A stretch of DNA of 64,000 bases. Origin: Eutreptiella sp. 'Long Island Sound 2002'. Taxonomy: Eukaryota; Euglenozoa; Euglenophyceae; Eutreptiales; Eutreptiaceae. This document shows, in pieces, positions 5,413-63,718 of the stretch. The notes beneath the pieces were generated by a model that saw only the letters and a list, made by a program, of their open reading frames with translations, was not told where the DNA came from and made no database searches. Numbering within the stretch: position 1 is the first letter of the stretch; each line of letters opens with the position of its first letter. Both the position numbers and the translations under genes were made by a program. Location of the stretch: the NCBI GenBank assembly GCA_964036045.1, contig OZ038402.1, positions 946,445 to 1,010,444 on the forward strand. Reading direction: 5' to 3'.

Positions 5413-5420
5413 AGCAACAT

Positions 5421-40415: not shown

Positions 40416-40445
40416 CACAAACAAAGATTGTTGAGAAATGAGACT

Positions 40446-40602
40446 CTGTAGAACACGCAACACACCAGTGGCAGTTCCAGAGGCAACAGCAGAGGCAGCA
40501 AAAGCGGAACGTGCAGAACGCGCAGCACACGCAGAACGCGTAACACGACCTCCAGAGGCAGACACAGAAGCAGACACGTAGAGCGCGTATTACACGAAAC
40601 AC
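40446..40602 (-). other. CGCGT-family intron 7 (piggyBac 5' region)
   Basis: Minus strand: GTTTCGTGTAATACGCG start, repeated GCGTTCTGCG words, two GCCTCTGG motifs, and a CGTGTTCTACAG end, followed by AGTCTCATTTC and the ATG at 40415. It matches introns 1-6 of the neighbouring gene in length and motif order. The first base could also be two bases upstream. Confidence 0.7.
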
Positions 40603-45985: not shown

Positions 45986-45989
45986 CGTT

Positions 45990-46130
45990 TTGGGCAAGAC
46001 CCCCTTAGGAACCCCCCTTCCTGGCCAAGAAGGGGGGTTCCTAGGGGGGTTCCTGGGCAGGAACACCCCCCTTCCTAGAGCCTTTCCTTACCCCCCTTCC
46101 TAGACCCTTCCTATGACCCTTCCTATCCCG
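45990..46130. repeat. TTCCTG-family repeat tract
   Basis: Tandem CCTTCCTAGACCC / GGAACCCCCCTTCCTGG words. The same family fills 47920-48182, 49922-50297 and 52380-52525. It lies at the 3' side of the locus B transposase and could be a terminal intron or UTR. Confidence 0.75.
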
Positions 46131-46194
46131 AGGCAATAGCACACAAATCCGTTCGCTGGGGCTTGAATCGTATTGTGCCACCACATTGATGTTG

Positions 46195-48300
46195 TCACTG
46201 GTCCACATGCCGCTTGCGTCGCTTGACAACGGCTGCACCGCGGCCTTGTCGCGCCTCATACAATTGCAAACCGACACTCAATGCGTCAATGTGCACCACG
46301 TGCCTCATTCCGAGGCGTGTGATGCGGGGTCGCCGAAGGCACCAACTGCGCATCGAGTTTTTAGGATGCCGCTTGAACGGTTGGTTTCTGCATTCCGTCG
46401 GAACGCTGCGAAAAATGTACAAACTCCCAAAGCGGCGCGCAAAATATGCGCTGTGATCACATGCCCAATGTACCCAAGGGGTCACACCCCATTGCAATTT
46501 ACCCCAACACTCCCCTAAACGGTCTCTCGCGGACTCCCATTCCTTGCGTTCGGCACTGTGTTAGCCAATCCCTTTTGCGCCAGAGCGCGTGCATTCGATG
46601 CATTGATAATAACACATGCTTCATCAATAGGAAAAATTTAACGCCACCAAAGGCCACGTCGGGTAGGTTGTCCTGCAATACAGCCACAACTCGGCCATGT
46701 AATGCATTGTCTTAAAAAAACATGTTGCCACCTACTATATCAATTTTTCCGGCCTTGGTTGGCCGGGGAGCCAACCGCTCAGCATGCAGAACATTTTTCA
46801 CGTCATCCAAAAGCTTGTGAAGCTCCAAAACCAAGGCTTTCTCTGCGCCCCTTGCAGCACGGGCAACGTCGGGTGCACCGTTTTCAATCAAATCTTTCAA
46901 TGTTTCATTGACTCGCTTCAGAATTGCGTTCGCAATACGACACGAGCCATGCTCCACGTCACCAACGCGGTTGCATGGTCCAGTTGCCCTCAAAAATTGC
47001 ATGGTCCAATTGCCCTCAAATATGAGCCCCACCTGCATTGGGCCGGTACAAAATTGGCACGTGCCAAGGAGTCAATGCAATGGCAGTCCACCCAACATGT
47101 CCCCTTGTGATAAATGGCCGGGAGCATGGCTTTGCTATCACATGTGAAGGCACATACACCGGGGATGCGATTCCCCAAGTGCCAAACATCCACAGTGACC
47201 AAAACATCCAAAACATCCTGATTCAGGGTTTGCCTTAGCGTCCATGGCCCGGAGACAGTGCGTGTCATCGGGACCATCGAGCGCCCACCACGTCGCCTAG
47301 CGTCGCACGTCGCTTGCAGCCGCTACACCCTCTTACCAAACGGTCACGTGGATGTCGCACTTGGTGGCCGAGGTCTGCCACAGTGGTGTGGCATCTGCGC
47401 AAATGATAATCAAGAGCCGGTCTTGGCGAGGGATGTTAAACGTACCGCACGCCCTACTCAACGTCCGCTGTCTTTGCACTACTTCAAGGAGTGGACATAC
47501 AGCGGCAGAGGCGCGATACCACCCCCGATGAAACCTCGAGGGCGGTTGAGACATATGACAACAGTTTGCTGCGCCCCTCCATTAATTCCCTTCGTGTACA
47601 ATTGCGCTTCAGTTTTAACATGTTGCGCGTGGAGAGGCTCATTTGCTGTGCCGTTGCAACACTTGGATCACTTCCTCGGGGACATGATGTTCGTCGTCAT
47701 CGCGCACCTCTTGGCTGCCCGACTCAATCACTATACCGTTACCGGTTGTGCGCACAACGATGTCGTCATGTCCAAGCACAGCGCCCGAACCACAACGTCG
47801 CGAATGCATTTTTGTCTCTGTCGCCGTGCATCAACCTCCAGATCCCAATACGGGGTCACACAAAGGACACTGCCAAAGAAATTGGCAACGGCCTTTTGCA
47901 TTACATTTAAAATGAAAGCCTGCCAATAATTGTGAGGGCAGGATGTGCACAGGAACCCCACAGGAACCCCCTTCCTGCACAGGAACCCCCCCCCCCTTCC
48001 TGGCCAGGAACTATCCCAGGAACCCCACAGGAACCACCCTTCTTGTACAGGAAAACCCTTCCTGGACCCCTTCCTGGACTCCTTCCTGCACAGGAACCCC
48101 CCGCCTTCCTGTACAAGAACCCCCTTCCTGTACCCCTTCCTAGACACTTTCTGCACAGGAACCCCCCCCCCCCTTCCTGTACCTTGTGTTTCGGTGTACT
48201 GCCCCATCGCAACCGCAACAGATGTTACCCGGGTCCTCTCAAATGCCGTTGTCACATCAGGGCCAGACAATGCATCCTTGGCTGCATTCCAACCACACAT
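46195..48300 (-). pseudogene. D-D-E-like transposase (locus B), several frames
   Basis: Minus-strand order: exon 48300-48183 (VTTAFERTRVTSVAVAMGQ), intron 48182-47920, exon 47919-47731 (AFILNVMQKAVANFFGSVL). Then CADATPLWQTSATKCDIHVT (about 47420), VLVTVDVWHLGNRIPG, CAFTCDSKAMLPAIYHKGTC (about 47120), LKDLIENGAPDVARAARG, HVLLSMHRMHALW, and RSVPTECRNQPFK (about 46400). The Asp in DATPLW, the Asp in CDSKAM and the Glu in PTECRN are candidates for a D-D-E RNase-H-fold triad. The DATxxW..SAT..D and GDxKA patterns resemble large algal and fungal transposases such as the KDZ group. Frames change at least four times, so it is decayed or intron-split. Confidence 0.55.
47920..48182 (-). other. Intron built of TTCCTG-family repeats (transposase, locus B)
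   Basis: 263 bp, minus strand ACACAAG|GTACAGGAAGGGGG..ATTATTGGCAG|GCTTTC. Between the splice sites it is almost wholly TTCCTGTRCAGGAA and G-run units. The sense strand is G-rich, opposite to the intron at 49922-50297. Confidence 0.75.
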
Positions 48301-48780
48301 GCCATGGAACTGCGTCCATGCTTGGAGACCTTGGAAATCTCCGTGGTGCCCCCAAAGGTGAAGCTATGTGAAGCTCCCCGCTCGTGGCACCACATTACGT
48401 GCCCTGCGCACGACGTGACTACTATCCTACGCGACTGTCGCGCACAAAATAGGATAAGGGTTAGATATGCGTCAGGGTTACGCCAAAAAGGACTAGTTAT
48501 TGGTTATGGGTTAAGGTATGGATTTTTTTTTGCGTACTCCGTCCCACAACCCTTGGCGCATTCGCACAGCCTTGCATGCATGCGTGCAATCTTGGGAGTG
48601 GGCTGGTCACAACACACGTGTACCGCAACCACCGGAACGCAACTCCCTCTCAGTGTGCCACCAAGGGTTGTCTCTCCACGTCTCATGCCCACAAAACCCG
48701 AGCACCCCTCAACAGCCGCCAAGGCCGGAGGGACACTCGGGATCCTTGCGCTCTCATCGCCACCGTGCCTCGCCACTCCT
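48301..48780. other. Spacer between the two locus B genes
   Basis: No gene supported. A T-run lies near 48522-48530. Confidence 0.3.
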
Positions 48781-48782
48781 CA

Positions 48783-49500
48783 TCACTTGCTGGGGCTGGG
48801 GCCCTGGCCGTACGTCCGGTGGAGGATGCTCAACGCCCGGTCACATTCCGCAGCTTTCTCCTCGAGCAGAGACTCGGCCTTGACCCTGCCTGCCTGCGCC
48901 TCGCGCGCCACGTCTTCGGCAGCTTCCAACCGGTCTTCCAAGGCAACCTGTCGTGCCTGCAAACTTGCAATGGTTGCCTCGTGCTTGACAACCTGTTCCC
49001 GTGCTTCGCGCTCCTTCTTGGTTGCCTACTCTGTGGCCCGCTCTGCCCGGGTCTTGCCGTCACTTGCCATCGCCTTCTCAACGGCATCAATCAACACCTC
49101 CTTCAACGCCGTGCGCACGACCTCCTGCAACCCAGGTGCCAGCTTCGTGATCACTGTCCCCGTGTCCATTGCCATTGGACTTGCCCGCCCCGGGCTGCCC
49201 GGTACCCGCCGCTTGGAGGGGGAGTCGGTGATGACGGTCCTCGGGGCAGGTTGCTTCGTGGATCCCCGCACCGCCCTCTCTGATTGCCTCGACTTGACCT
49301 CGGCCCCAGGTTGCCGCCACAGTGGCCGTGTATTTGCGTCCGTGCCGGCCTCCTTTTTCACGTGTGAGTGTCCACCGAATTGACCCTGTTCGTGCCGCTT
49401 GCGGTACTTCTCCAACCACTCGTCAACCGCGTCCTGCACCTCAATGGGGACACCGGCATCCAAACCCATCAGCCTTGCCAGATTCTTCCGCGTCTTGAAG
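48783..49500 (-). pseudogene. Coiled-coil C terminus of the transposon-associated protein (locus B)
   Basis: The frame runs KTRKNLARLMGLDAGVPIEV, DAVDEWLEKYRKRHEQGQ, a basic Ser/Pro/Thr linker, then LAPGLQEVVRTALKEVLIDA. After ERATE there is an in-frame TAG (49029-49031), and the same frame continues KKEREAREQVVKHEATIASL through LEDRLEAAEDVAREAQAG to a stop at 48783. The region after the stop is a clear heptad coiled coil, parallel to the one ending locus A. The TAG is one base from a Gln codon, so it is probably a recent nonsense change. No enzyme motif. Confidence 0.6.
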
Positions 49501-49921
49501 CTAGTCTACTCGCTGTACACCAAGAAAGACCATGTGTTGCTGGCCTTGGCATGGCCAACAAGGCACAAGTACTGCGCAACCACGTACGTCTTGCCATGTC
49601 CTGCATGCCCCTGGGGCAGCTCGGCCAGGCTGCTCGTACATGCCACTGGCAACCGCAGTTGCAGGGCAGTGGCTGCCTTCCCCTTCCAGACGGTCAGTGT
49701 GCGGTAAATACCATGTGCCCGACTCCCTGGTAACATGACTGTGCATGTCCGTGATGGTCGGCGTCGATTGCAACAGCCATGTGGGAGGGTCTTGAAGACT
49801 TGGTGCTCGCCCCTCCACAGCCCGCGCAGCCTCCGATGGTGCCACTGGCAGCGGGGCTGCCCACTCCTCCTCATCGACAGACTTCAGGACCAGCCGCGGG
49901 TACACGTCGAAGTCAGCCTGA
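49501..49921 (-). CDS. Middle exon of the transposon-associated protein (locus B)
   Basis: It begins after the acceptor CGTACTTCTCTTCAG with ADFDVYPRLVLKSVDEEEWA, aligning with VDVLPAMDM of locus A at the same place. Further down, two frames look protein-like: THTDRL-type sequence in one and TYVVAQYLCLVGHAKASNTW in another. A frameshift near 49700 is therefore likely. Confidence 0.5.
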
Positions 49922-50297
49922 AGAGAAGTACGCAAAATGCCACTGACGACAGGAAGGGGTCCAGGAAGGGGGTTCCTGCGCATGAAGGGGGGGGGTTCCT
50001 GTGCAGGAAGGGTCCAGGAAGGGTCTAGGAAGGGGTCCAACAAGGGGGTTCCAGTGCAGGAAGGGGGGGGGGTTCCTGTGCAGGTAGGGGGTTCTTGGGG
50101 GGTTCTTGGGATGGTACCTGTGCAGGAAGGGGGGGGGGGGTTCCTGTGCAGCAAGGGGGTTCCTGGGGGGTTCCTGGGACGGTTCCTGTGCAGCAAGGGG
50201 GGGAGTTACTGAGTAGCATGCACATGCCACAGCCCACACACTGTGCCCCGTTCAAGCCCTCAAACTGCCCTCCCCTTGCATTGCCACTACCGCTGAC
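49922..50297 (-). other. Intron built of TTCCTG-family repeats (coiled-coil gene, locus B)
   Basis: It follows VLFAK (minus GCCAAGG|GTCAGCGG) and ends TTCTCTTCAG. The inner part is CTTCCTGCACAGGAACCCCC units. The sense strand is C-rich, the opposite orientation to the family member at 47920-48182. Exact 5' splice base is uncertain. Confidence 0.65.
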
Positions 50298-50613
50298 CCT
50301 TGGCAAACAGTACTGACCATATATTTGCCCCATCGCATTGTGAACCCCTCCAACCAAAGGCCCTGCCATTCAAAGGGGACAGAGTGTCAACCTGCTGGCA
50401 TGCGCACCAAAAGGCCTGCTCCTGTGCCACCTTGGTGTTGCGAACGATCGCCCCGGCCGCCATCAACAAGCTCGGGTCCACGGGTCTGGGCTCGGGTGGT
50501 GCCATCTCCATCCGGTACACCAACACGTCACTGCTCTCCTCGGTACCCCGGTCGAATCCTCCGAATCGGCCGTTCACCACCACCAAAATGCTCCCAGGCG
50601 GCGTAACCAACAA
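50298..50613 (-). CDS. W-CACQQV exon (locus B)
   Basis: The frame reads PPGSILVVVNGRFGGFDRGT, SDVLVYRMEMAPPEPRPVDP, EQAFWCACQQVDTL and NIWSVLFAK. Parallel to 30538-30789 in locus A (W-CACQQV and LVLFAI). Strand-like hydrophobic runs suggest a folded domain. Family unknown. Confidence 0.55.
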
Positions 50614-50639
50614 GGCGTGGTGTTCGAATCTCGGCCAGG

Positions 50640-51060
50640 GCAGCCATTCGCTCTCGTGTGCAAGTCCTCCAGCTTGGGGGTTGTGTCAGCGGGAATCACA
50701 TGTGGTGCGGCCGCTGCCTCGTAATGCCCGGTGTAAAGCGTCGTTCCATCTGATGAAATCAAACATGTCACCATGTGCTGAAGGGCAGGGACACGACTCG
50801 GATCCGCGGCCTCGGCACTGCCCACATCGGATGTTGCTGCTTGTGCTGCTTCAGTGTCGCAGTGGCTACACTCGATTCCCGTGTGATTGCGGCAAAGGAC
50901 TTGGACTGCACACCCAAAACACTTCTCACTTGTCGGCTTCTCGCAGCATGCGTGGACTCCACAACTCACAAGCGGCCTTGTGCGCCCAAAACGGGGGCGT
51001 GAGGGTAGGTGATATGACACGGTATGCGTTGACAGCCCGCACAACCCAATAATACGGCGG
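50640..51060 (-). CDS. Cys-cluster exon (locus B)
   Basis: Minus-strand frame with RTRPLVSCGVHACCEKP, KCFGCAVQVLCRNHTGIECS and HC: eight Cys and two His in about 40 residues, a treble-clef or CxC-type zinc module. It is followed by SSDGTTLYTGHYEAAAAP. CxC clusters are known N-terminal to KDZ transposases, which is compatible but not proof. It lies in the ORF 50574-51191. Confidence 0.5.
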
Positions 51061-51200
51061 GAGCCCGGTTCCGCAGCCAATGGCAGGCCGCCTCCTTCAT
51101 GCACCACCGTCGAGCAGATCACCCATAGGGAACCCCTTCGCATTGGCATGCGGTGGATCATCCGAGGCCGAGGGAAGGCACGGGCCGACATGGCGACGAA

Positions 51201-51660
51201 CTATGCGCAAACATCATCGTCAGGAATATCCATTGACAGTGCTGAGAACAAGGAGAGGGCGATGCCATCCACAGGAAGTGACGCTGTTGGGAAATCTCCG
51301 TGCGGCAGTTGTCGAACGTGGGTGATGGACTCGATGTACCCTTGCATCATGACGTGCGGCGTCTTGCCCAAGATCGCCTCCAGCTTGGTCTTCACCCGCG
51401 TCACCATGGCCGTCAGGCGCGGCAGGTCCCACAGCTGGATGTGTTCCTCCCCATCCGGATGCTTGGGCATGTCCTCCGGCTTCCCCCACACAATCTTGCG
51501 GTCCGGCGGGTCCTGACCTCGGCCACCAACTGGGCGGTTGTGGTTGAAGATGCGGGCCCAGTGCTCCTGGGCGATCGCCAATGCCTCCTTGTGCGCCTCC
51601 TCCACCTCATACTTCGGAAAAAAAAACCCCGGATGAACAAGTGCTGCAGGTTGGCAAGCC
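51201..51660 (-). CDS. NNDPI/helical exon (locus B)
   Basis: After NNDPIWLANLQHLFI in one frame, the frame 51605-51201 reads EEAHKEALAIAQEHWARIFN, a Gly/Arg-rich loop, HIQLWDLPRLTAMVTRVKTK and HVMMQGYIESITHVRQLPHG. It matches the order seen in the 37.2-38.2 kb copy (NNDPITIP; AHWKTQI; LDRVRTSL). The A-run at 51620-51626 separates the two frames. Confidence 0.5.
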
Positions 51661-51829
51661 AGATGGGGTCGTTGTTCACGGCAGTGGGGTAGTCACTCGA
51701 CGGCTCCAACAAGGGGTCGTCGTGCACGACAAGGAGCAGGGTGGAGGTGACGGGAAGGGAAAGCAGCCCGCTGGCCGCATAGGCACTCGGCACGGTGAGC
51801 CCGGGGTTATCGCCGTCCCACTCCCACGC

Positions 51830-52330
51830 TTAGCGCCTGGAGACGGAGTGGATGGGGAGGGTCTCCCAAACGGACTGCCGCGGATTAAAGAGGAACAGCT
51901 TCCTCTTGGCGGCCTCCTTGTACCACCCCTCCTTGGCTAAAGTGGCGGGCTTGGGCTTCGTGGAAGCGAAGCGGAGGGTGGTGGGCAGCTCGGCATCCAC
52001 CGGGTGGGCAGCCATGTAGTGGCTGTGGATCCGGGTGTGGTCGCTGGGCAGGCGGGTGGACAGGGACTCCAGCAAGGAGTACTCCGCTCCGCTGGGCCGC
52101 ACGTGGAAGGCGGTGATGTCGGGGTTGCGGCGCAGTGTCTCCGCAATGAGGTCTGAGAAAGCACACGGGTCCTTGTCGCGGAGGATGGACTTGGTGATGC
52201 GCACCCGGCCAACGGTCGTGCCCAGCGGCCAAATCACGACGGCGTTGGTTGGGATGCCCGTGTCTTGGAACGTCTGCCCCTCCGGAAGGGAGCAGCCACG
52301 TGTACTGGCGGGGCCTGTGACGGCCGCCAT
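51830..52330 (-). CDS. First exon of the transposon-associated protein (locus B)
   Basis: 166-aa ORF with TGIPTNAVVIWPLGTTVGRV, KDPCAFSDLIAETLRRNPDI and FHVRPSGAEYSLLESLS, then AAKRKLFLFNPRQSVWETLP. FSD..L..NPD..VRPxGxE is shared with 37386-38198 and 44458-45273. The start at 52330 (MAAVTG) is the first Met. A TTCCTG-repeat tract lies just upstream, so this may be exon 2 of a longer gene. Confidence 0.55.
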   Translation of the reverse strand: MAAVTGPASTRGCSLPEGQTFQDTGIPTNAVVIWPLGTTVGRVRITKSILRDKDPCAFSDLIAETLRRNPDITAFHVRPSGAEYSLLESLSTRLPSDHTRIHSHYMAAHPVDAELPTTLRFASTKPKPATLAKEGWYKEAAKRKLFLFNPRQSVWETLPIHSVSRR

Positions 52331-52379
52331 CCAATATCAAGGGAAGGGACATGCACACATTGCGAAAACCGGGCTGCCC

Positions 52380-52525
52380 TTTAAGGGGCAGGAAGGGTCA
52401 TAGGAAGGGGGGTTCCTGGCCAGGAAGGGGGGGGTTCCTGCCCAGGTCGGGGTCTAGGAAGGGTCTAGGAAGGAGGTTTCCTACCAGGAAAGGGTCCAGG
52501 AAGGGTACAAGAAGGGTAGTAGAAG
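52380..52525. repeat. TTCCTG-family repeat tract
   Basis: GGAAGGGTCTAGGAAGG and TTCCTGCCCAGG words, same family as the introns at 47.9 and 49.9 kb. It separates locus B from the composite element at 52.5-59.4 kb. Confidence 0.75.
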
Positions 52526-52580
52526 ACAGCACAACACAACAGAACAAAAGGGCACATGCAAATCTGTGGGAACCATCCTT

Positions 52581-52950
52581 TCAGTCATCGATGAGTCCAT
52601 CCATGTCATCCACCAGCTGCGAGCAACTGGGTTGGGAGCTGCTTGGTGGTGCTGGGAACGCATAACAGGGTCCGTGTCTGGCACAAAGGCATCCCACTGT
52701 GCCAACAATGGCAACACATGCTGCATAGCAAGGTCCCTCATTTGCCGCCGGTTACTGTTACCTGCCACCTTCACACCAAGGACATCTAGACAGTGCAACA
52801 ACGCCCCCCTTGTCCAATCACGCAGCTTGCCATTCTGCACTGCCATTACCAACTTCGCGTGCACCCTAGCCACACCACGCCCCTTATGTGGCTTACGTGG
52901 TGTGGCCAGTTCGTCTGCACTATTGTTCTCCCCCTCGTCACAGGCATCAT
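52581..52950 (-). CDS. SAP-like DNA-binding module, transposase C-terminal exon
   Basis: The minus-strand frame (ORF 52481-52969) has DEGENNSADELATPRKPHKG, then LVMAVQNGKLRDWTRGALLH and LDVLGVKVAGNSNRRQMRDL, which fits the helix-loop-helix of a SAP domain (hydrophobic pattern plus the G.S.R..L.D segment). A splice acceptor GAATGTTGCAG lies at about 52955, joining it plausibly to the zinc-finger end of the transposase ORF upstream. Another frame near 52600 ends VDDMDGLIDD, so a late frameshift is likely. Confidence 0.5.
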
Positions 52951-52999
52951 CTGCAACATTCACCACCACCTCCGCACAAGGACGCGGACTTGCGCAAAA

Positions 53000-53881
53000 T
53001 CATGCATGGCACACCAGACATGTATTGCACCAGATGTGAACCACCTCCTTGCATGTGGCACACTGCGTACCTCTGCGAAAGGTGATGAAGGAATGGATGC
53101 CAGCATGCGAGTCACGGGTCCAATCTGGTGCAACAGTGCTGACCACATCAGCGTGGTGCCGCTCTGTACCCTTTCCTGAGGGTGCCGTAGAGGTCAGTGG
53201 TGTACCCGGCCCTCCAAAGAAGGGCAGGATGTCACCATCATCAACCACCGCTTCATTACCTTGCAGACATTGAAGCATTGCAGCTTCCACAGACTCTCTG
53301 TCACCTACCTTCCTTGAAACACTGTGTCTTGGGCGCAGATCGAAGCGTGCACGGGCAGCTAGGTGGCGTACCACTGCAACACCTGGTCCCTTTGCCCATT
53401 GCTGTAAAGGGGGCAAGTTGGAATGCAATGCCATGCACACGCGAAGGACATGTGTCTCCACGATGTCATGCATACTACTGCAAAACCTCGAACGCATAGA
53501 GATGGCACGCTCTACTGCAGCTTCAGCAGGGCAATATGTTCGCAATAATGCGAGAACACGCGACACATTCACCCACTGTGCATGTGCCCTTTCAGGTGCC
53601 AAGGCCACCCACATCTTGGACATTTGCACAGTTGCAAAGTGCTGCACCATGTGCTCGTTAAGGCCTTCCCACTCTACCAAGGCACGGTCACAGCTCACAT
53701 GTGCTGCACGCAACTCTTCTTGGTGTGAAGCCATGAACTGACGCAACGACTGTACCTTATATGCAGCACGCTCATTGACCGGGAGGGCAAGGAAACGGCC
53801 ATGGTCCAACAATATTGCGCACTCCAACACCCCCCTCGGGACAATGAGTGCGTGCCCCTCCTTGATGCCTGCAAGCAACAC
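53000..53881 (-). CDS. hAT-like transposase, C-terminal dimerisation part
   Basis: 293-aa ORF. Residues 105-160 (VLALLRTYCPAEAAVERAIS, MHDIVETHVLRVCMALHSNL) fit the hATC dimerisation signature (s.a..ER.FS..........v..l..l..N). After a Gly/Pro/Thr linker come RGTQCATCKEVVHIWCNTC, a small Cys-rich module. The first residues continue the helical region of the upstream ORF at 54221. A probable intron follows the last Cys (CTG|GTGTGCC..TTGCAG), leading to the SAP-like exon. Confidence 0.55.
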   Translation of the reverse strand: MLLAGIKEGHALIVPRGVLECAILLDHGRFLALPVNERAAYKVQSLRQFMASHQEELRAAHVSCDRALVEWEGLNEHMVQHFATVQMSKMWVALAPERAHAQWVNVSRVLALLRTYCPAEAAVERAISMRSRFCSSMHDIVETHVLRVCMALHSNLPPLQQWAKGPGVAVVRHLAARARFDLRPRHSVSRKVGDRESVEAAMLQCLQGNEAVVDDGDILPFFGGPGTPLTSTAPSGKGTERHHADVVSTVAPDWTRDSHAGIHSFITFRRGTQCATCKEVVHIWCNTCLVCHA

Positions 53882-54220
53882 ATAAGTTACTGCACGCGCC
53901 TGAACGCCTGGAAAAGGGGGGGTTGCTGCACACTTCTGCCCAACTGAATCAAACTAGACCAACTGCACACCATGCCATGCACGTGCCACAGTTTGCTCCT
54001 TCAACTGCAACCACCCCGGACCCTCCTCTTGCGCCACCTTCTGCAACCGTGCTTGTCGCATACCTTTGGCAGTGGCTAAGTGTGCACGAGTGGGCGCGCG
54101 CAATAGTGCCACACTGTCAAAACACCGCATGCCATGCAGAATGTCCCCATAAACCACCCCCCATGCAAGCAAATTGGCATCGTGGCAGTCCTCCCACACA
54201 TCCTCCTCTTTGGTAGAATG

Positions 54221-55306
54221 CTACACCTTGGAATCCAAGTGCCGTGCCACCCAGGGGACATTGGCCAAAACAGCAGTGTTGCGCCGTGCATGTGCCCGTG
54301 ACCACCTAATGCGATGACATATGGGGATGAGTCGCAAGCCACTACGTTTATCCTGCACGTGCTTTTGCACACACTTTTGCAACTCCTTCCACTGCCGTGC
54401 CCCATTGTACAAGCCTCGTTGGCGATCCACGGCTGCCATGTAATCAGCATGGGTTGGGCCTGCAGCCTCCAATGCAGGACCCGGCTTGCGCTGCAACACA
54501 TGGCAGGGCTCACCCAAGGGTGTCATCAAGACCAACCACCTCCCAATCAAGGCGAACACATTGCTCTCAATGGCAGAGACATCAACAACTTGCCGCGCAC
54601 GCGCACCCCGCACACCAAGGTTAGAAGCCCGGTCCACTGCAAAGGTCACCAACCTCTTTGCCCACCAATCACGGTCAGGAATCCAGGACAGCAGGACGCA
54701 TTCTAGCTGCGTTGCAATCTCTTGCGCAGCACCACACGCCACATCCACCAGACCAAAGAACACCTCACATATGCCCCCGAGGCCAGTCCCAGGGAAAACA
54801 AGCAGAAGGGCGTACTCATTGACGCGATGCCTCTGCCTATCCGAGCCGTCAAGCAACAGGGCAATGAACGTTGCCAAGAATAGGGTGTGTGTTACCTCGT
54901 CCTGCGGGGCATCATGCATTGCTGCAATAGCCTTCTCAACTATCCACGGCCGTGATGTGTGGTGCCTAGGGGCATATGTCAAAGAACAATGCGGAACAAT
55001 GCGCTCCCTTAAAGCACGGATGGAAGTGCGCATGCGTAACCCAATATACAACTCAACCAACCCTGACAAAATGGCTGCCTCAGCATCTGTCACTGCCACA
55101 CCAATGTCCATGGCTTCCCCCTTCATGAACACAATGTTCTCTCCCACCACTTCAGCTGTGGTAGCAGTGGGGCACAATGCGAGATATCGCTCTGCACAAT
55201 GCTGCTTGAAACTCTCCTCGGCCAGTCGGTGGTGGTGCCCTGGCCTACGCAGATTCTTTCGCGCTGATGTTGTGCCACGTGATAACCCCGAGTGGCTTTC
55301 CAACAC
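54221..55306 (-). CDS. hAT-like transposase, catalytic core
   Basis: 361-aa ORF. ATFIALLLDGSDRQRHRVNE (Asp153) corresponds to the first Asp strand (LmlDestD) of hAT/ZNF862-type transposases. RLVTFAVDRASNLGVRGARA (Asp225) matches the GfgsDGas..G..nGv block. EPCHVLQRKPGPALE matches the HC.AHrl.La block, and GLRLIPICHRIRWSRAHARR matches the ..tRW.s.... block. This is an RNase-H-fold hAT-type transposase diverged in key positions (DR instead of DG). The catalytic Glu is expected in the following ORF. The ORF ends at 54221 with a stop; the sequence continues in another frame at 53881, so an intron or frameshift intervenes. Confidence 0.6.
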   Translation of the reverse strand: MLESHSGLSRGTTSARKNLRRPGHHHRLAEESFKQHCAERYLALCPTATTAEVVGENIVFMKGEAMDIGVAVTDAEAAILSGLVELYIGLRMRTSIRALRERIVPHCSLTYAPRHHTSRPWIVEKAIAAMHDAPQDEVTHTLFLATFIALLLDGSDRQRHRVNEYALLLVFPGTGLGGICEVFFGLVDVACGAAQEIATQLECVLLSWIPDRDWWAKRLVTFAVDRASNLGVRGARARQVVDVSAIESNVFALIGRWLVLMTPLGEPCHVLQRKPGPALEAAGPTHADYMAAVDRQRGLYNGARQWKELQKCVQKHVQDKRSGLRLIPICHRIRWSRAHARRNTAVLANVPWVARHLDSKV

Positions 55307-55424
55307 TTCCCTCCGCTATGTTTTTGGGCTAGAGGTCTTCATACGCATCCCTTCAGCATATGTTCCCAATACCAAGGCTTCACTGGCCCGAGGGGGACGC
55401 GCCACCCCAAGAATGCCACACACA

Positions 55425-55871
55425 TTAGCCCATGCAGAAACATACACACTCAACACCCCCACTTGTCGTAAACTGATATTGCCAATGAGCGTCTACAAAC
55501 GCTTGCAGTGTCTTTGAGCCACCGTCCAGTCGCATGGGAGCAGCTTGCAGCAACACGCACAATGCATCCTTCCCTGATGCAGCCAATGCAATGGACCGCA
55601 ACCTGTCTTGCTGCACTGACTGTGCCACTGACGTTTGTGACATGGCATGCTCTGCATGCCGCTCATCGCACTCTTTTGCATGCCGTGCTCTACGTTGCAT
55701 CTGGTGTGCTTCAACACGCACTTGTAGATGCCTTGCCACTCGCACCTTGCGCTTCTGCAACAACTGTGCCACTGCCTCAACAAATTTTGAGGACGGCTGA
55801 TTTGCACCAACGGACATCATGTCGTGCTGGTCACTACAAACATGCTGTAGGGCGCCACGGCGGCCACACAC
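55425..55871 (-). CDS. Putative N-terminal part of the hAT-like transposase
   Basis: Minus-strand frames in this interval read SSKFVEAVAQLLQKRKVRVA and a His/Gln-rich helical stretch ARHAKECDERHAEHAM. It lies directly upstream of the catalytic ORF. A C-H-C-H zinc finger (BED-like) would be expected here in a hAT protein, but I cannot define one. Two frames compete (55493-55810 and 55425-55871). Confidence 0.3.
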   Translation of the reverse strand: MCGRRGALQHVCSDQHDMMSVGANQPSSKFVEAVAQLLQKRKVRVARHLQVRVEAHQMQRRARHAKECDERHAEHAMSQTSVAQSVQQDRLRSIALAASGKDALCVLLQAAPMRLDGGSKTLQAFVDAHWQYQFTTSGGVECVCFCMG

Positions 55872-55883
55872 ATCTCACCAGGC

Positions 55884-56130
55884 ATGCTCTGGGCATGCAT
55901 ACTCATGTTCCTGTCCCCTACCCTTGATGCACTTTGTGTTGCAGTGGGGGAAGGGGGGGGTGCACCTCGTGCCAGTGCCATGGCTGGCATAGAGGTGTCA
56001 ATAGGCATGCTTTGGGCATGCATAGTTCTGTTTCTGTGCCCAACCCCTGTTGCACCCTGTGTTGCAAGAGGGGGGGGACGCACCTCGTGGCAGCGCCATG
56101 GCTGGCACCGAGGTGTCAGAAGGTATGCCC
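55884..56130. repeat. Tandem duplication at the end of the USP-like ORF
   Basis: Two to three imperfect copies of a ~115-bp block: ATGCTCTGGGCATGCATACT / ATGCTTTGGGCATGCATAGT, each followed by a GTGTTGCAG.GGGG segment and GCACCTCGTG..CCATGGCTGGCA. Confidence 0.8.
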
Positions 56131-56795
56131 CCGGCATCCCATGTGTTATCAAGGGGTGAAGCCCCCATCCGTTGGGAGGTAGACTGCGACATGTCTGGTA
56201 CCATCAGATAGTTCCGTTTGCGCTTGTACAACAAAAAGGTCGCTTTTCGTGGATTGGGTGGTGGGCTCATGCCCGTCACTGACGTATCATCACACAGCCA
56301 CCACTTGTCGTTAAAAACGACATACACCACAAAGTGACCGTCATCCTTGGTTGCTCCAATGTGTACCACCATGGCATGCAAAAACCATTGCCATCCCAAG
56401 ATATCCAGAAACTCATGGTCCACAACCAACTTGTACTCTTGTTGGTTGTGGACATGTAACCCTACGACTTCATTGAACACAAAAGATGCATACATTGGTG
56501 CCTCTCGCAGATCACCCCCACAAGCACAAGGGGGGGGGTATCGGGTAGGCCAACATTTCGCCCCTTCATTCCCTCCTTCACACACTGTCGCACACTCTGC
56601 CACTGATTCGTTACGTGTAGTACGTGTGCTGTCATCCCTGTCTCCCCGCCCCTCCTGTAGAACCTTCACTCTACATTGCCCACACCGTTGCCAGAACTGC
56701 TCATAAGACAGGCAACATGATAAATCCACCACCCCAACAGCCGTGAGCTTGGGCACCATGTACTTCCAACATTCCGCCATCTCTGCCTGCTGCAT
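55998..56795 (-). CDS. USP-type deubiquitinase-like protein, C-terminal half
   Basis: 265-aa ORF. WFLHAMVVHIGATKDDGHFV (His154), VYVVFNDKWWLCDDTSV (Asp169/170) and KATFLLYKRKR form the His box and end of a C19/USP catalytic domain (avv.H.G....GHy.ay......W...dD..v....ayll.Y.r). Upstream, CCLSYEQFWQRCGQCRVKVL has paired Cys as in the USP finger. The N-terminal Cys box (GNTCYxN) is not visible; it may lie in an exon between 56.8 and 57.2 kb or be absent. USPs cleave ubiquitin from proteins. After the domain the frame reads Ser/Pro-rich sequence with a duplicated segment (see 55884-56130). Confidence 0.6.
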   Translation of the reverse strand: MQQAEMAECWKYMVPKLTAVGVVDLSCCLSYEQFWQRCGQCRVKVLQEGRGDRDDSTRTTRNESVAECATVCEGGNEGAKCWPTRYPPPCACGGDLREAPMYASFVFNEVVGLHVHNQQEYKLVVDHEFLDILGWQWFLHAMVVHIGATKDDGHFVVYVVFNDKWWLCDDTSVTGMSPPPNPRKATFLLYKRKRNYLMVPDMSQSTSQRMGASPLDNTWDAGGIPSDTSVPAMALPRGASPPSCNTGCNRGWAQKQNYACPKHAY

Positions 56796-57177
56796 CCATT
56801 GGAATTTTGGTGCAGGGGCTTTGCACTTGCAACGCCCGCTGCATCACCGTCTCACATATGGCACCCTCCAAGGCCAACATTTCAGCAATGTCCTGCGGAT
56901 TGTACGCAATGCTTCCCACATGTGCTACAACATCCTACCACAATGTCCCCCCCAAACACCCCTCATCAAGGCATTGTGGGTGTTGTCCTCCATGTCCACC
57001 AGACGCCACCAAGAGGCATTGCAGTGTGGTACCGTACCCAGCCAACACCACTTGTAGCCTGATGGATTCTCCATGCCCCATGGTCGCCGCGGTGCTCCTC
57101 CAAGTGGCCCACTATGCACCTGCATCGAAGCGGAATGCAGCCTCGTTGAGGAAAGCACGGTCCCATGGCGGGAGTGT
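56796..57177 (-). other. Unassigned stretch within the composite element
   Basis: Minus-strand frames such as SIAYNPQDIAEMLALEGAI look protein-like and directly precede the USP-like ORF, so an exon is likely here. No Cys box is recognised. Confidence 0.35.
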
Positions 57178-57720
57178 TCACCAATCACCACGGGAGTATA
57201 ACACCACCAACCTCCTCTCCCCGTGCCAAGAACAAGTGCCATGCCATGCACCCGGACGTACCAGAACCGGTTGTTGGGATACATTGTACGTTGTGCCATC
57301 CCGGGTAACATCATCCAAGCACTGCATACTACATCTCCGTCCACCTGGACCATTACATACACCACCCACCTCCACCAATAAGTGCCCCCGTGTGTGCCGT
57401 CCTGTGGAAAAAACTGCCGACCAAAGGGATGTGTCATGCACATGCTGATGCGGTTTTGTGAGGACATTGCAAGATAATTGCATGGTAGTCCACGTGAACC
57501 ATTTAGGCAACATCTCCCTTGCAATTCTGTTTACCACGGTCGCCAGTGGCTTGTAGTTGCGTGTTTGTTGCAGTAGACGGCGGCAGTCTCTTGCATTGGT
57601 GTGGCCCTTCATACCGCCAACCCCTAGCTGCAAATGCCACGCTCTAATCCCCCCAACCGGCCCACGCTTCCATGGCAACATGCTCATCATCCCATGCAAT
57701 GTACAAAAGGGCGCTACAAG
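57178..57720 (-). CDS. 2-oxoglutarate dioxygenase-like domain (TET/JBP-type pattern)
   Basis: In the 223-aa ORF that starts at 57849, the first ~45 residues overlap the end of the OTU-like ORF and are probably not real. The remainder reads CRRLLQQTRNYKPLATVVNR, LPKWFTWTTMQLSCNVLTKP, HQHVHDTSLW, RGHLLVEVGG, then LVRPGAWHGTCSWHGERRLV and VLYSR. The order (FT.v..n, H-box, G..LwvE, ..WHgt.p..GeR..lv.Y) matches the 2OG-Fe(II) dioxygenases of the TET/JBP group, often carried by algal and fungal transposons. Distal His203 and Arg213 are in place. The metal-binding HxD appears as His134-Gln-His136, so the Asp ligand is missing or replaced. Activity is therefore uncertain. Confidence 0.5.
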   Translation of the reverse strand, partial: LVAPFCTLHGMMSMLPWKRGPVGGIRAWHLQLGVGGMKGHTNARDCRRLLQQTRNYKPLATVVNRIAREMLPKWFTWTTMQLSCNVLTKPHQHVHDTSLWSAVFSTGRHTRGHLLVEVGGVCNGPGGRRCSMQCLDDVTRDGTTYNVSQQPVLVRPGAWHGTCSWHGERRLVVLYSRGDW

Positions 57721-59363
57721 CAGCGAATGATCAAAGACTGCTCCCCGAAAATGGCCACCACCTTTGAAACCTTCTCGTTCCGCCTCAGCAATAACCACCA
57801 CCATTGCCGTTGGCAATGCTCCTCCATATCTCCACAACCACGGACACACAGCGGAACGTCACGTCCAGGCACCCAGAAAGTAGGCGATGGCAATTCGCTG
57901 TCCATCGCAAATCGTGGCGTCACCATGCTGAACCTGTTTGTTCGCAACAACACCACACTACCGTCCACATGCTTTGCCAGACTAGCAAAGTGGTCAGGTA
58001 GTCCCCCTTGGAGCCGGCGACCCCATGTGTCCTTCTCAAGATCCCGGTTCACTGATAGTGCAGACTCCTGAATCGAAGACCCAGACATTTCGCCACACAC
58101 GCCAATGGCTTTTCGCAGCGATGTGTCATCCAAGGGGACGTCGCTGCTCAAAGCATGCAGGCTTTGGGCCACGGCATAGAAGAAACATGCCCCTGCAATG
58201 TACCGGTCCGCTAAAATGCGTAGCTTCAAGGACCTGACAGTTGGCAGGTCCCTATTTTGCTTGGCCTTGTTGGGCCTTTGATCCACCTTGTCCAATGGAG
58301 TATCATCTGGATCAATCGGAGCTCTCTTTGTGCCTTGCTCTTTCTTGGCACATTTCAGGGGAGCCCCAGTACTCGGGGGTGTAATCCCTGGTCGCTTCCT
58401 GCTCACCGGGCTCTGTTCCAATGAACTGGGGTATTCAACTGGGGTGGTGACAGAATCAGTACTAGACTGACTACATGCCTTCACCGTTGCCACACTGCCT
58501 GTGCTACAAGGACTACAGTCCACAGCAACCGGCTCCCTGGGTTTCTGTGCAAGTGGTATAGGGGACTCCTCCAAGCAACTCGCCACCTCTCCATCACTAG
58601 CTGCCGGTGCCAAACATGCAGCGTCCACCACTGCAGGGGGGGCAGGGGGCTGTGGCGTGAGAACCCCTGTAGGGCCCACTACAGATGCAATGCAAGGTGA
58701 CTCACCGGTGGGGCAAACTTGGGGCATGTGGCCTGGTGTTCCATGTCCTCGCGTTGCAATACATGCCAGGAAGTCAGTTACACCACCTTTGGGGGGGGCG
58801 GGGGGACTGAGCACCCCGCCATGATCCAGCGCACCATGGCTATCCACACTATGTGCACCTGCTAGGGGACCATGCCCTTGTGCCAAGGAGGTCGAAGTGG
58901 GATTTACATACTCATTGCTTCGAGGGTGTCCTGCAATGAGGACTGCTGCTCCATGCCCCTGCGCTATGGCAGAGGATGCGGAGTCATTGGGGTCACCTGG
59001 TGGGTTCCCTTCTGGACTTAGTCGTTGGGTGTATGCCGGGCGCACCCCGGCCTCCTCCAATTCCTCCACTAATTGCTGCAACATCTCCAGACCTCCATCA
59101 TCCCTCCATGCGATGTCCACAACCCGTACTGCCGCATGCAGACGGCCGGGGTGACTATCCGGTACCTCCGGGCTGAAGGGTCTGCAACGCATCCACAGCT
59201 CACTAGAGTCTTGCATGGGCACCCGCATGCTATTCGCAAAGTGGCGGCCTAGCGTGTATGCTGCCACCAGGCTGTCCTCGCTCAATGGTTTATTGCGCTG
59301 CTCCTGCAGCCTTTGGCATGCAATCGTCACGCAGCGGGCAACCCCACGGGCGGCCTGCATCAA
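57714..59363 (-). CDS. OTU-like cysteine protease with long disordered N-terminal region
   Basis: 549-aa ORF, the longest in the element. Residues 1-110 are helical (CVTIACQRLQEQRNKPLSED, LEMLQQLVEELEEAGVRPAY). Residues 110-370 are Pro/Ser/Gly/His-rich and probably disordered. Residues 380-480 contain LRILADRYIAGACFFYAVAQ (candidate catalytic Cys393), EKDTWGRRLQGGLPDHFASL and AKHVDGSVVLL, which fit an OTU fold (DG.ClF.a...; ..WGg...l.AlA......i.v). The catalytic His end (WWWLLLRR) lacks the usual HY motif. A start upstream of 59363 is possible. Confidence 0.5.
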   Translation of the reverse strand: MMQAARGVARCVTIACQRLQEQRNKPLSEDSLVAAYTLGRHFANSMRVPMQDSSELWMRCRPFSPEVPDSHPGRLHAAVRVVDIAWRDDGGLEMLQQLVEELEEAGVRPAYTQRLSPEGNPPGDPNDSASSAIAQGHGAAVLIAGHPRSNEYVNPTSTSLAQGHGPLAGAHSVDSHGALDHGGVLSPPAPPKGGVTDFLACIATRGHGTPGHMPQVCPTGESPCIASVVGPTGVLTPQPPAPPAVVDAACLAPAASDGEVASCLEESPIPLAQKPREPVAVDCSPCSTGSVATVKACSQSSTDSVTTPVEYPSSLEQSPVSRKRPGITPPSTGAPLKCAKKEQGTKRAPIDPDDTPLDKVDQRPNKAKQNRDLPTVRSLKLRILADRYIAGACFFYAVAQSLHALSSDVPLDDTSLRKAIGVCGEMSGSSIQESALSVNRDLEKDTWGRRLQGGLPDHFASLAKHVDGSVVLLRTNRFSMVTPRFAMDSELPSPTFWVPGRDVPLCVRGCGDMEEHCQRQWWWLLLRRNEKVSKVVAIFGEQSLIIRCL

Positions 59364-59540
59364 CGCTTGGTCAAAGCGCTATTGCCGTGTTTGGGTGATA
59401 GTGACACAGGCACGTGGGGCCACAGCCTCAGGCAGCAACGAGTTGCGCCGACGGGCATCAGGCGCCCTGGGACCTGGTAACAGGTCGCTCACCAGTGGTT
59501 TGGGCCCACTTGTAGCTTGGGCCCACAGAAAAGGGCCGGG

Positions 59541-59689
59541 CTAGGTCCCACTTTTGAGGATCAGCCGCTCATAGAACTCGGCCGTAGAAGGGGTGGGATA
59601 TGGATCACGCCCAGTTCAGACTGGCCACTCGTCAACCAAAGGTAGGGCACACACCAATTCACACCAAATTGCCCTTTGGTCTGTCGCCT
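59541..59689. other. Upstream flank of the composite element
   Basis: No coding signal or inverted terminal repeat was recognised. Confidence 0.3.
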
Positions 59690-60040
59690 TCACAATTGTG
59701 GGCCACCGTGAAATAGCACCAGCCTGACGAGCACCTGGACGACCGGTGTGTCGTTTCGCAAGCCGTTCCCTAGCTGTGTAGCAACTTGACGATAGTGCAC
59801 GTGGCTGCCCCCATCATGCATTGTGGGCATGGCAAACCCATGCTCGGTGTACATGAACCGGCACAATGGCCTTGCACCATGGTGATTCACCACTTCAAGG
59901 TCACATGTTGCCATGTGGTCCCTCAACGTTCCATAGCTGTCCTGCCACCTCAGGGGTGGATTCCCATCCCCATTGTCCTTTGGCCAGCAATAGGGCCATA
60001 CTTCTTTCTTGCGGGCTCCAGTAAGTGCTCCGGCGGCCAC
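59690..60040 (-). CDS. Small ORF of unknown function
   Basis: 116-aa frame: VWPYCWPKDNGDGNPPLRWQ, SYGTLRDHMATCDLEVVNHH, ARPLCRFMYTEHGFAMPT. C..x..H...C spacing is reminiscent of a degenerate zinc finger. The sequence is protein-like but unclassified. It could be an exon of the composite element or of another gene. Confidence 0.35.
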   Translation of the reverse strand: MAAGALTGARKKEVWPYCWPKDNGDGNPPLRWQDSYGTLRDHMATCDLEVVNHHGARPLCRFMYTEHGFAMPTMHDGGSHVHYRQVATQLGNGLRNDTPVVQVLVRLVLFHGGPQL

Positions 60041-60545
60041 TCAGGAGGCTGGTCCATTGCTGGGGTCGTGCACCACGACCGTTAGCGGTTCCGGTGGTTT
60101 TCGTGCCTTGCAGGGTCAACAACCGTGACCACTAGGGGGCTCCCACAACTCCAGTGGGCAATCAAGCTTAGGACCTTGGTACTCAAAGTGCCAGCCTGGC
60201 TTCTCCTCAGGCTCACCAGCTGGTTCACGAGACGCCGTTGTGGGTGAGTTTGTCTCAAGAGCGCTATGGCTGTGACCACAAACGAAGTGCTGCGGCTCAG
60301 TGGCACGCAGTGGTTAGGACAAGGTTTGGTCGCGAAGCGCAAGGGCTTAGACCAAAACCGACTGATGTGGCTCAGAGGCACACAATATTGTAAGCAGATG
60401 AATTGGCTTCTAATGCCAACAACACCCGGGTTGTGGCGACAGAACACGAACGTACACCTCACACGGTGTAGTAAGGCAAAACAAACTACAAGGAGAAATG
60501 GCATAGATGAAACCACAGAAGGGCGATCCACATTCCAAACGTGTC
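60041..60545. other. Spacer before the palindromic satellite
   Basis: An imperfect ~67-bp tandem duplication lies at 60270-60400 (GCTGCGGCTCAGTGGCACGC / TGATGTGGCTCAGAGGCACA). No gene supported. Confidence 0.4.
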
Positions 60546-63500
60546 CACGGGGCCCTATTCATTCTAGACCCCCAAAATAATTGACGCATAAGCACGCGTC
60601 AATTATTTTGAGGGTCTAGACCCCCAAAATAATTGGCACGTGCCCACGTGCCAATTCCAAGGGGGGTCTAGACGCCCAAACTAATTGGTGTGTGCCTATG
60701 CGCCAATTCCTAGGGGGTCTAGACCCCCAAATAATTGACGCATAGGGAGGCGCCAATTCCTAAGGGGGTCCTTGCCCCCAAAATAATTGGCGCGTGGGCA
60801 CGCGTCAATTATTTTGAGGGTCTGGACCCCCCCAATAACTGGCGCATAGGCACACGTGAATTTTTTCGGGGGTCTAGACCCCCCTAGGAATTGGCGCATG
60901 CGCACACACCAATCATTTGGGGGGTCTAGACCCCCCAAAAAATTGGCGGGTGGACACGCGTCAATTGATTTGAGGGTCTAGACCCCCCAAAAATTGGCGC
61001 GTGGGCACGCTTCAATTATTTGGGGAATAATTGGCACATAGGCACACACCAATTCCTAGTGGGGGCTAGACCCCCCAGATAATTGGCGCATGCCCACGCG
61101 CCAATTATTTTTGGGGTCTATACCCCCTAAATAATTGGTGTGTGGCGACGCGTCAATTATCATGAGGGTCTAGACCCCCCAATTAATTGGCGCGTGGGCA
61201 CGCGTCAATTATTTGGGGGCTCTAGACCCTCATCATAATTGACGCGTCGCCACGCGCCAATTATTTTGGGGGTGTAGACCCCCCTAAGAAGTGGCGCGTG
61301 GGCACGCGCCAAAGATTTTGGGGGTCTAGACCCCCCAAAAAATTGGCGTGTGCCCACACGTCATTTATTTCAGGGGGGCTATAGCGCCCTAGGAATTGGC
61401 GCGTGGGCACGCGCCAATTATTTTGAGGGTCTGGACCCCCCAAATAACTGGCGCATAGGCACATGTGAATTTTTTTGGGTGTCTAGACCCCCCTAGGAGT
61501 TGGCGCATGCGCACACACCAATTATTTGGGGGGTCTAGACCGCCCAAATAATGGGCGGGTGGACACACGTCAATTGATTTCAGGGTCTAGACCCCCCAAA
61601 AAATTGGCGCGTGGGCACGCTTCAATTATTTGGGGGATCTAGACCCCCAAAATAATTGGCGCATAGGCACGCGTCAATTCCTACGAGGGTCTAGACCCCA
61701 AAAAAAATTGGCACATAGGCACGCGCCAATTCCTAGGGGGGTCTGGACCCCGTAGATAATTGGCGCATAGGCACGCGCCAATTCCTAGTGGGGGCTAGAC
61801 CCCCCAGATAATTGGCGCATGCCCACGCGCCAATTATTTTTGGGGTCTATACCCCCTAAATAATTGGCGCGTGGCGACGCGTCAATTATTATGAGGGTCT
61901 AGACCCCGCAATTAATTGGCGCGTGGGCACGCGTCAATTAGTTGGGGGCTCTAGACCCTCATCATAATTGACGTGTCGCCACGCGCCAATTATTTTGGGG
62001 GTGTAGACCCCCCTAGGAATTGGCGCGTGGGCACGCGCCAAGGATTTTGGGGGTCTAGACCCCCCAAAAAATTGGCGTGTGCCCACACGTCATTTATTTC
62101 TGGGGGGCTAGAGCGCCCTAGGAATTGGCGCGTGGGCACGCGCCAATTATTTGGGGGGTATAGACCCCACAAATAATTGGCGCGTGGACACACGTCAATT
62201 ATTTCAGGGGTTTAGACCCCCCAAAGAATTGGCGCGTGGGCACGCGTCAATTATTTTCAGGGTCTGGACCCCCCAAATAACTGGCGCATAGGCACACGTG
62301 AATTTTTTCGGGGGTCTAGACCCCCCTAGGAATTGGCGCATGCGCACACACCAATTATTTGGGGGGTCTAGACCGCCCAAATAATGGGCGGGTGGACACG
62401 CGTCAATTGATTTGAGGGTCTAGACCCCCCAAAAATTGGCGCGTGGGCACGCTTCAATTATTTGGGGGATCTAGACCCCCCAAATAATTGGCGCATAGGC
62501 ACGCGTCAATTCCTACGAGCGTCTAGACCCCAAAAAAATTGGCACATAGGCACGCGCCAATTCCTAGGGGGGTCTAGACCCCGTAGATAATTGGCGCATA
62601 GGCACGCGCCAATTCCTAGGGGGGGCTAGACCCCCCGGATAATTGGCGCATGCCCACGCGCCAATTATTTTTGGGGTCTATACCCCCTAAATAATTGGCG
62701 CGTGGCGACGCGTCAATTATTATGAGGGTCTAGACCCCCCAATTAATTGGCGCGTGGGCACGCGTCAATTATTTGGGGGCTCTAGACCCTCATCATAATT
62801 GACGTGTCGCCACGCGCCAATTATTTTGGGGGTGTAGACCCCCCTAGGAATTGGCGCGTGGGCACGCGCCAAGGATTTTGGGGGTCTAGACCCCCCAAAA
62901 AATTGGCGTATGCCCACACGTCATTTATTTCTGGGGGGCTATAGCGCCCTAGGAATTGGCGCGTGGGCACGCGCCAATTATTTGGGGGGTATAGACCCCA
63001 CAAATAATTGGCGCGTGGACACACGTCAATTATTTCGGGGGTTTAGACCCCCCAAAGAATTGGCGCGTGGGCACGCGTCAATTATTTTGAGGGTCTAGAC
63101 CCCCAAAAAACTGGTGCCTGGGCACGCGTCAATTATTTCGGGGGTCTAGACCCCCCAAATAATTGGCGCGTGGACACACGTCAATTATTTTCAGGGTCTA
63201 GACCCCCCAATTCAATCATTGCCGTGTGGGCACGCGTCAATTAGATGAGGGGTCTAGACCCGCCTAGCATTTGGCGCATAGGCATGTGCCAATTATTTTG
63301 GGGGTCTAGACCCCCCAGGGAATTGGCGCGTGCCTACGCGCCAATTATTTCGGGGGTCTAGACTCCCCAAATGATTGGCGCGTGGGCACGTGTCAATTAT
63401 TTGGAGGGTGTAGACCCCCCTAGGAATTGACGCATAGGCACGTGCCAATTATTTGGCGGGTCTTGACCCCCCTAGGAATTGGCGCGTGGGCACGCGCCAA

Positions 63501-63718
63501 TCATTTGGGGGGCTAGACCGCCAAACTAATCGGCGCGTAGGCACGCGCCGATTCCTAAGGGGGTCTAGATCCCCCAAATAATTGGCGCGTGCCCACGCGC
63601 CAATTCCTACGGGGCTCTAGACCCCCAAAATAATTGGCGCATAGGCACGCGCTAGTTCCTAGGGGGATCTAGAACGCCGAAATAATTGGCGCGTGCCCAC
63701 GCGCCAATTCGTAGGGGG
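60546..63718. repeat. Two-palindrome satellite with higher-order repeats
   Basis: About 65 units of roughly 48 bp. Each has two palindromes: a cold-spot arm pair TTGGCGCGT / ACGCGCCAA around a GGGC or GCCC centre, and GGGGGTCTAGACCCCC centred on TCTAGA, joined by AT-rich TTATTTT or AAATAA links. Variants of the first palindrome include TTGACGCGT, TTGGCACGT and TTGGCGCAT. A group of variant units beginning TTTTTGGGGTCTATACCCCC recurs at about 61109, 61838 and 62669, giving a higher-order period of about 730-830 bp. The copy starting near 61790 and the one near 62630 are almost identical over several hundred bases. Confidence 0.95.

Follow-up and report, generated by a model that had tools for sequence, protein, structure and literature searches.

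Do the broken open reading frames (ORFs) that crowd the minus strand of one stretch of the Eutreptiella sp. 'Long Island Sound 2002' genome belong to a single mobile element, and if so, of what kind? The stretch, hereafter the window, is 64,000 nucleotides long (positions 946445-1010444 of its contig, in a genome of 2.28 Gb and 2205 contigs). The original prediction had read seven minus-strand ORFs between 52530 and 59540 as one large element joining a hAT-like transposase with segments resembling an OTU protease, a USP (C19) peptidase, a 2-oxoglutarate (2OG) dioxygenase, and a SAP domain. Our analysis indicates that the locus is probably a broken copy of a giant, repeated family of hAT-like cut-and-paste DNA transposons that carry their own host-interference enzymes.

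Within the window, open frames on the minus strand shift register between approximately 60.1 and 52.5 kb. The codon-usage score, for which three of these same ORFs served as the training set, is positive on this strand at approximately 59.4-57.9, 55.9-55.6, and 55.3-52.7 kb and weak at approximately 57.9-56.0 kb. Because these fragments resembled one decayed unit, the organism's own genome was searched for further copies. Twenty sister copies were compared over approximately 10 kb each, and their homology to the window spans approximately 60387 to 52522. The seven predicted ORFs are present, yet the comparison resolves them into pieces of two adjacent genes, ORF1 and ORF2, laid out in the window as follows (L013 is the longest copy):

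57112..60057, minus strand: ORF1 (broken), with an unknown N-terminal region, an OTU-like segment, and a dioxygenase-like segment; aligned from the open ORF1 of L013 (1073 amino acids)
57735..58193, minus strand: OTU-like segment, Cys box GACFFYAV and His box GGHFRGAV, in separate frames in the window copy
57213..57483, minus strand: dioxygenase-like segment, unproven, PHQHVHD ... WHGTCSWHGERR
52581 (approximate)..57125, minus strand: ORF2 (broken by stops and frameshifts), with a USP peptidase, a hAT-like transposase, a Cys cluster, and a SAP-like tail; mapped from the open ORF2 of L013
56318..57053, minus strand: USP (C19) peptidase domain, Cys box KWCWLG and His box DDGHFVVYVV
54298..54856, minus strand: hAT-like DDE core, motifs LLDGSD, FAVD(G/R)ASN, CH, and RW
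53498..53530, minus strand: hATC-like end (PAEAAVERAIS), where the Hermes hATC has its best local match within ORF2
52994..53062, minus strand: Cys cluster, CATCK..CNTCLVCHACFC in the copies, interrupted in the window copy by a TGA stop
52715..52825, minus strand: SAP-like tail, unproven, a sequence reading

In L013, both frames are open (ORF2 with 1578 amino acids from stop to stop), and its order on one strand is a helicase (ORF0), a 52-bp palindromic array, ORF1 with the OTU-like and dioxygenase-like segments, and ORF2 with the USP domain, the hAT-like transposase, and the Cys cluster. Eighteen of the 20 copies have the OTU/2OG region of ORF1 next to ORF2; it is absent in L009, and L015 retains no more than the final 44 residues. 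At ATGCAGGTGCATAG, the stop codon of ORF1 shares bases with an ATG in frame with ORF2, as seen in 19 of the 20 copies and in the window. The family is numerous, with the transposase-core ORF found at 112 or more scored genomic places including the window (a lower bound, as scoring covered the best candidates only), the other 111 at 82-85% identity. Eight of these at least 112 places have open ORF2 frames of 1534-1584 amino acids that match without a stop, and in seven of the 11 copies listed the ORF2 frame reaches 1555 amino acids or more. For ORF1, the genome yields 43 scored candidates (59 matches), of which four, L013 among them, cover the full 1073 amino acids without a stop. Residue conservation is given below as counts over the best tblastn matches in the 20 copies. 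Two alignments were assembled, A1 from 11 of 15 candidate copies (L010, L022, and L024 had stops; L019 was left out) with two window pieces, and A2 from 10 of 16 copies (L017 and L019 had stops; L014, L018, L022, and L025 were left out) with the read-through window protein. Outside this genome, scans of viral contigs confirmed no protein relatives.

The original prediction had proposed that other genomic copies be used to define terminal inverted repeats (TIRs) and 8-bp target site duplications (TSDs), and both are there. All three copies in which both ends were reached carry perfect 14-bp TIRs (CAGCTATGTGTATA) and perfect 8-bp TSDs:

L015: TSD TTGGGAGG, 6.8 kb
L017: TSD GGGACCAG, 13.7 kb
L013: TSD GTGAGCGC, 20.7 kb, the longest copy

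The 3' terminus was recognised in all 20 copies with at most five mismatches, as ...TTATACACATAGCTG or ...TTATACACAATCCTG with small variants, and the subterminal regions are inverted copies as well (89% over 256 bp in L015). The 8-bp TSDs are those expected of a hAT element, although duplications of this length occur outside hAT too. The short TIRs of hAT elements are of the type CA(A/G)NG, from which CAGCTATGTGTATA differs in its fifth base, a T instead of a G.

These termini also bear on whether the adjacent ORFs stem from separate nested elements or host genes and came together by accident. The window copy does hold a nested insertion and an inverted part of the helicase, but the order of ORF1 and ORF2 is the same in 18 of the 20 copies, and a single TSD pair encloses both genes in L013 and in L017, and the helicase too in L013. 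We therefore rejected an accidental composite, which we regard as very improbable. The claim of one large element joining a hAT-like transposase with OTU-like and USP segments is thus supported by the other copies; its 2OG and SAP labels are less certain, with HxH in place of HxD in the former and no Pfam SAP match for the latter, and so is the OTU fold.

The borders first assigned to the element need revision on both sides. At 52530, the presumed left edge, a nested insertion interrupts the window copy, whose 3' terminus lies at 45565, and on the right the element runs on past 59540 and past the window end, first with the 52-bp array and then with helicase remnants:

45565..45797, minus strand: 3' terminal part of the window copy including the 3' TIR, matching the 3' ends of L010 and L013 at 84-87%
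45798..52521 (borders approximate), no strand: nested insertion (approximately 6.7 kb) splitting the 3' untranslated region of the window copy; L013 homology ends at 52522, L010 homology resumes at approximately 45797, with inverted subterminal repeats near the edges
60563..63709, no strand: palindromic array of 52-bp tandem units, inside the element and upstream of ORF1; L013 and L017 have arrays of equal period in the interval from the 5' TIR to ORF1

The repeats near the edges of the nested insertion are inverted and rich in GGAAGGGGG/TTCCTG, and further inverted pairs lie inside it at 47950-48156 and 49950-50176. To the right of the window (64001-67000), a broken helicase of the same element occupies approximately positions 278-2998 of that segment, within which ORF0 residues 798-959 run in the opposite orientation; the 5' TIR of the window copy was not found in these 3 kb. 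Two 13-point pairs of inverted ends around the borders first proposed were judged, with no control, to be due to chance. The window copy is an old, broken, and insertion-split member of its family.

Among the modules of ORF2, the USP domain is the one confirmed by Pfam. The UCH/USP His box is matched with E-values of 3e-8 (window ORF), 1.3e-8 (His-box piece at approximately 56.3 kb), and 1.7e-6 (ORF2 of L013), and the matching Cys box sits in another broken piece of the window (57053-57012). Both the Cys and the His are kept in all 20 copies and in the window, so that a Pfam UCH match and both boxes place the domain in the USP/C19 family, with a predicted deubiquitinase activity. Sequence searches of the PDB returned USP chains at marginal E-values (best 0.3 and 0.13), the other matches being taken as chance, and one of these searches gave no match at all. 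The hidden Markov model check proposed with the original prediction thus succeeded for UCH/USP; OTU, 2OG, hAT/hATC, and SAP gave no Pfam match, and Pfam, NCBIfam, PADLOC, and PHROGs together gave none for OTU, 2OG, or hAT.

hAT transposases are recognised by a DDE core with CxxH and RW motifs and a C-terminal hATC. In ORF2, the ordered motifs LLDGSD, FAVDGASN, CH, RW, and AEAAVERAIS occurred in none of 20,000 shuffles, for a pattern that was composed knowing the sequence and corrected once, and their residues are kept in 19-20 of the 20 copies. The Hermes hATC was placed best at the hATC-like end of ORF2 (11 of 300 shuffles as high), and an hATC consensus landed at the same end at a non-significant score (44 of 300 shuffles). 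These motif tests and the termini point to a hAT-like element. Two results speak against this assignment, namely the lack of a Pfam hAT or hATC match in the window and L013 proteins and the fact that none of the 150 listed PF05699 hATC matches (of 1757 candidates in the genome) falls at a listed copy of the family when compared by eye. The same element might instead carry a transposase from another DDE superfamily with 8-bp duplications, such as KDZ or P. The missing Pfam match and the marginal hATC scores would fit this alternative, as would the non-exclusive duplication length, and the Cys cluster and SAP-like tail may be reminiscent of KDZ. Set against the ordered D, D, CH, RW, and hATC-like motifs and their conservation across copies, we consider it unlikely; no Pfam KDZ model matched up to an E-value of 10, an insensitive test for KDZ. 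The SAP-like tail is a candidate module without a Pfam SAP match.

In ORF1, the OTU-like segment is likewise proposed from motif tests. An OTU consensus aligned locally to it with a score of 62, which none of 300 shuffles reached (maximum 56), its Cys..His pattern, composed with the sequence already known, was absent from 20,000 shuffles, and the Cys and His are kept in the 18 copies with this region and in the window. Evidence to the contrary comes from the lack of a Pfam match for the segment, from OTUD5 alone, which scored no better than shuffles (60 of 300 as high), and from an hhalign comparison with OTU that covered 12 columns at a score of 17.5 (7 of 200 shuffles as high; 10.1 for the reversed sequence; at most 15.0 for other segments of the same proteins).

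The dioxygenase-like label is unproven. The iron triad of 2OG dioxygenases is HxD...H, and here the expected HxD reads HxH in all 18 copies and in the window, with the first His replaced by Arg in one of the 18, so that the triad of TET/JBP or other 2OG dioxygenases is not present. The segment has no Pfam match, TET/JBP having been looked for through Pfam only. Three prolyl-hydroxylase-type queries gave no alignment above shuffles (62, 47, and 138 of 300 as high), and their best places in ORF1 fell outside the segment, which, like the altered triad, counts against a dioxygenase. A single-sequence AlphaFold2 model of the window 2OG ORF was also poor (predicted local distance difference test, pLDDT, 31.5). 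Chances are about even that the segment is catalytically dead or no dioxygenase at all, as these results would suggest; on the other side stand a dN/dS (ratio of nonsynonymous to synonymous substitution rates) of 0.26 for the window against L013 and later His/Arg residues kept in 19 of 19 sequences. Similar segments are presumably present in dinoflagellate retroelement proteins.

The 5' part of the element adds a helicase. ORF0 of L013 is 1110 amino acids long from stop to stop, and its C-terminal 778 amino acids match AAA_11 (1.6e-15) and AAA_12 (1.2e-11), which places it among the superfamily 1 (SF1, UPF1-like) helicases. A proline-rich stretch lies upstream in the same frame, with one stop between, and the helicase is inside the TSD-bounded element. 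ORF0 is present in L013, represented by its C-terminal part in L009 and by its N-terminal part, without helicase motifs, in L028, and absent from the bounded L015 and L017; pieces of it adjoin the window copy. The 52-bp array between ORF0 and ORF1 is approximately 3.9 kb long in L013 and 3.1 kb in the window and exceeds 7 kb in L011, and one 52-nt unit is predicted to fold as RNA into a single hairpin (-31 kcal/mol). L017 has an extra 40-bp GC-rich array followed directly by the 52-bp array, with no helicase match. The place of these modules in a standard element is weakened by two observations. Helicase presence was assessed in five of the 20 copies, those with 5' flanks followed far enough upstream, and L015, with an exact TSD, lacks both ORF1 and the helicase, while L017 lacks the helicase; therefore, neither is strictly needed in cis.

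Selection was estimated as NG86 dN/dS from 14 copies and the window aligned to L013, with six pairs reported. Between L013 and the window, the values are 0.40 for the ORF1 N-terminus, 0.45 for OTU, 0.26 for 2OG, 0.19 for USP, 0.36 each for the linker and the core, 0.51 for hATC, 0.43 for the Cys cluster with the tail, and 0.44 for the helicase (736 codons). The decay of the window copy should, if anything, raise these values. The proportion of synonymous differences (pS) is 0.43 in the USP stretch, compared with 0.12-0.30 in the other modules. A less favourable value, 0.98 for OTU between L013 and L017, is based on few changes; some close pairs have too few changes to judge, and the helicase comparison with L028 covers 15 codons, too short for use. 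L013 and L023 form a mosaic, near-identical in the 5' half and with a pS of 0.14-0.21 in the 3' half, where another subfamily is represented, which suggests that subfamilies exchange halves.

How might these modules act together? ORF2 would yield a transposase with its own N-terminal deubiquitinase, and ORF1 and ORF2 may be translated from one transcript by termination-reinitiation or frameshifting at their overlap. OTU and USP could then deubiquitinate either the transposase or local chromatin at the element and so prevent degradation or silencing, with the dioxygenase-like segment and the helicase possibly acting on host silencing marks or RNA. Such a combination may help the element escape host control, including ubiquitin-dependent control, through counter-silencing or DNA modification. 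In its strongest form, this describes an autonomous hAT-like transposon of approximately 20 kb with a counter-silencing kit: a deubiquitinase joined to the transposase and a second, unrelated one, a dioxygenase with the altered HxH motif, a palindromic satellite array, and an SF1 helicase. Such an element would act against host control on three levels together, namely ubiquitin, DNA or histones, and RNA; we put this forward tentatively and consider it rather doubtful as a whole. An alternative, falling only somewhat short of an even chance, is that the deubiquitinase-like domains do not oppose silencing but help proteins of the element itself to mature or remain stable, or serve DNA repair at the excision site. 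The fusion of USP to the transposase itself would fit such a role, and functions of OTU and Ulp1 in transposition and repair have been proposed for Ginger1 in the part of the source consulted (PMC2836005). However, self-processing would hardly seem to call for two peptidase-type segments of different kinds as well as a helicase and an oxygenase-like segment. Whichever role applies, a hAT-like family of this make-up enlarges the small set of DNA transposons with anti-silencing or ubiquitin-pathway enzymes and combines several modules at dN/dS below 1 in one repeated element. The shorter TSD-bounded copies without ORF1 or the helicase offer a natural comparison of what each module contributes, and conservation of the USP and OTU-like boxes is sufficient to permit direct assays of whether transposons employ deubiquitination.

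Other mobile and repeated sequences share the window and the genome. A piggyBac-type transposase ORF (38850-40589, minus strand; DDE_Tnp_1_7, 5.4e-21) lies between direct repeats that are 98-99% identical (37301-37998 and 44373-45073), and a Harbinger-type transposase ORF is found at 4498-5439 (minus strand; DDE_Tnp_4, 4.2e-10). Long tandem arrays of 13-bp and 22-bp units occupy 23590-25515 and 11547-12092, respectively, the 22-bp array sharing an ORF with a CCCH zinc finger. Elsewhere in the genome, other hAT elements are represented by at least 150 scored Pfam hATC matches (of 1757 candidates), some in frames open for more than 800 amino acids.

A partial literature search (titles and beginnings of abstracts) found no hAT element combining OTU, USP, dioxygenase, and helicase. 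Helentrons and Helitrons are not known to have a hAT core, or TIRs and TSDs of this family's kind. As far as the source was consulted, they resemble the family in uniting a helicase and an OTU-like protease in one element and differ in their rolling-circle Rep/Hel protein (PMC6431247). The TET+ hAT7 transposons of Puccinia, in which the dioxygenase is proposed to oppose methylation silencing, pair a hAT transposase with a dioxygenase gene, placed upstream of the transposase and in the same orientation in three named hAT7 families (Kojima 2025, PMC12730594). They differ in their 7-bp TSDs and in the TET/JBP family of the enzyme, and in the main text of that article the words OTU, ubiquitin, protease, and SAP are absent (PMC12730594). 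In Ginger1 elements, the DNA transposase carries an OTU or Ulp1 protease domain at its C-terminus; this transposase is Gypsy-integrase-like, with one protease per element in Table 1, and the sections consulted mention neither dioxygenase nor helicase (PMC2836005). The same source, again in part, describes a Trichomonas C19 peptidase joined to a transposase_11 domain and Ulp1-bearing Mutator elements, DNA transposons with a ubiquitin-like protease that differ from the present family in both transposase and protease family (PMC2836005). TET-bearing hAT elements and protease-bearing transposases are thus already known separately; a combination such as that of the Eutreptiella family did not appear in the literature searched.

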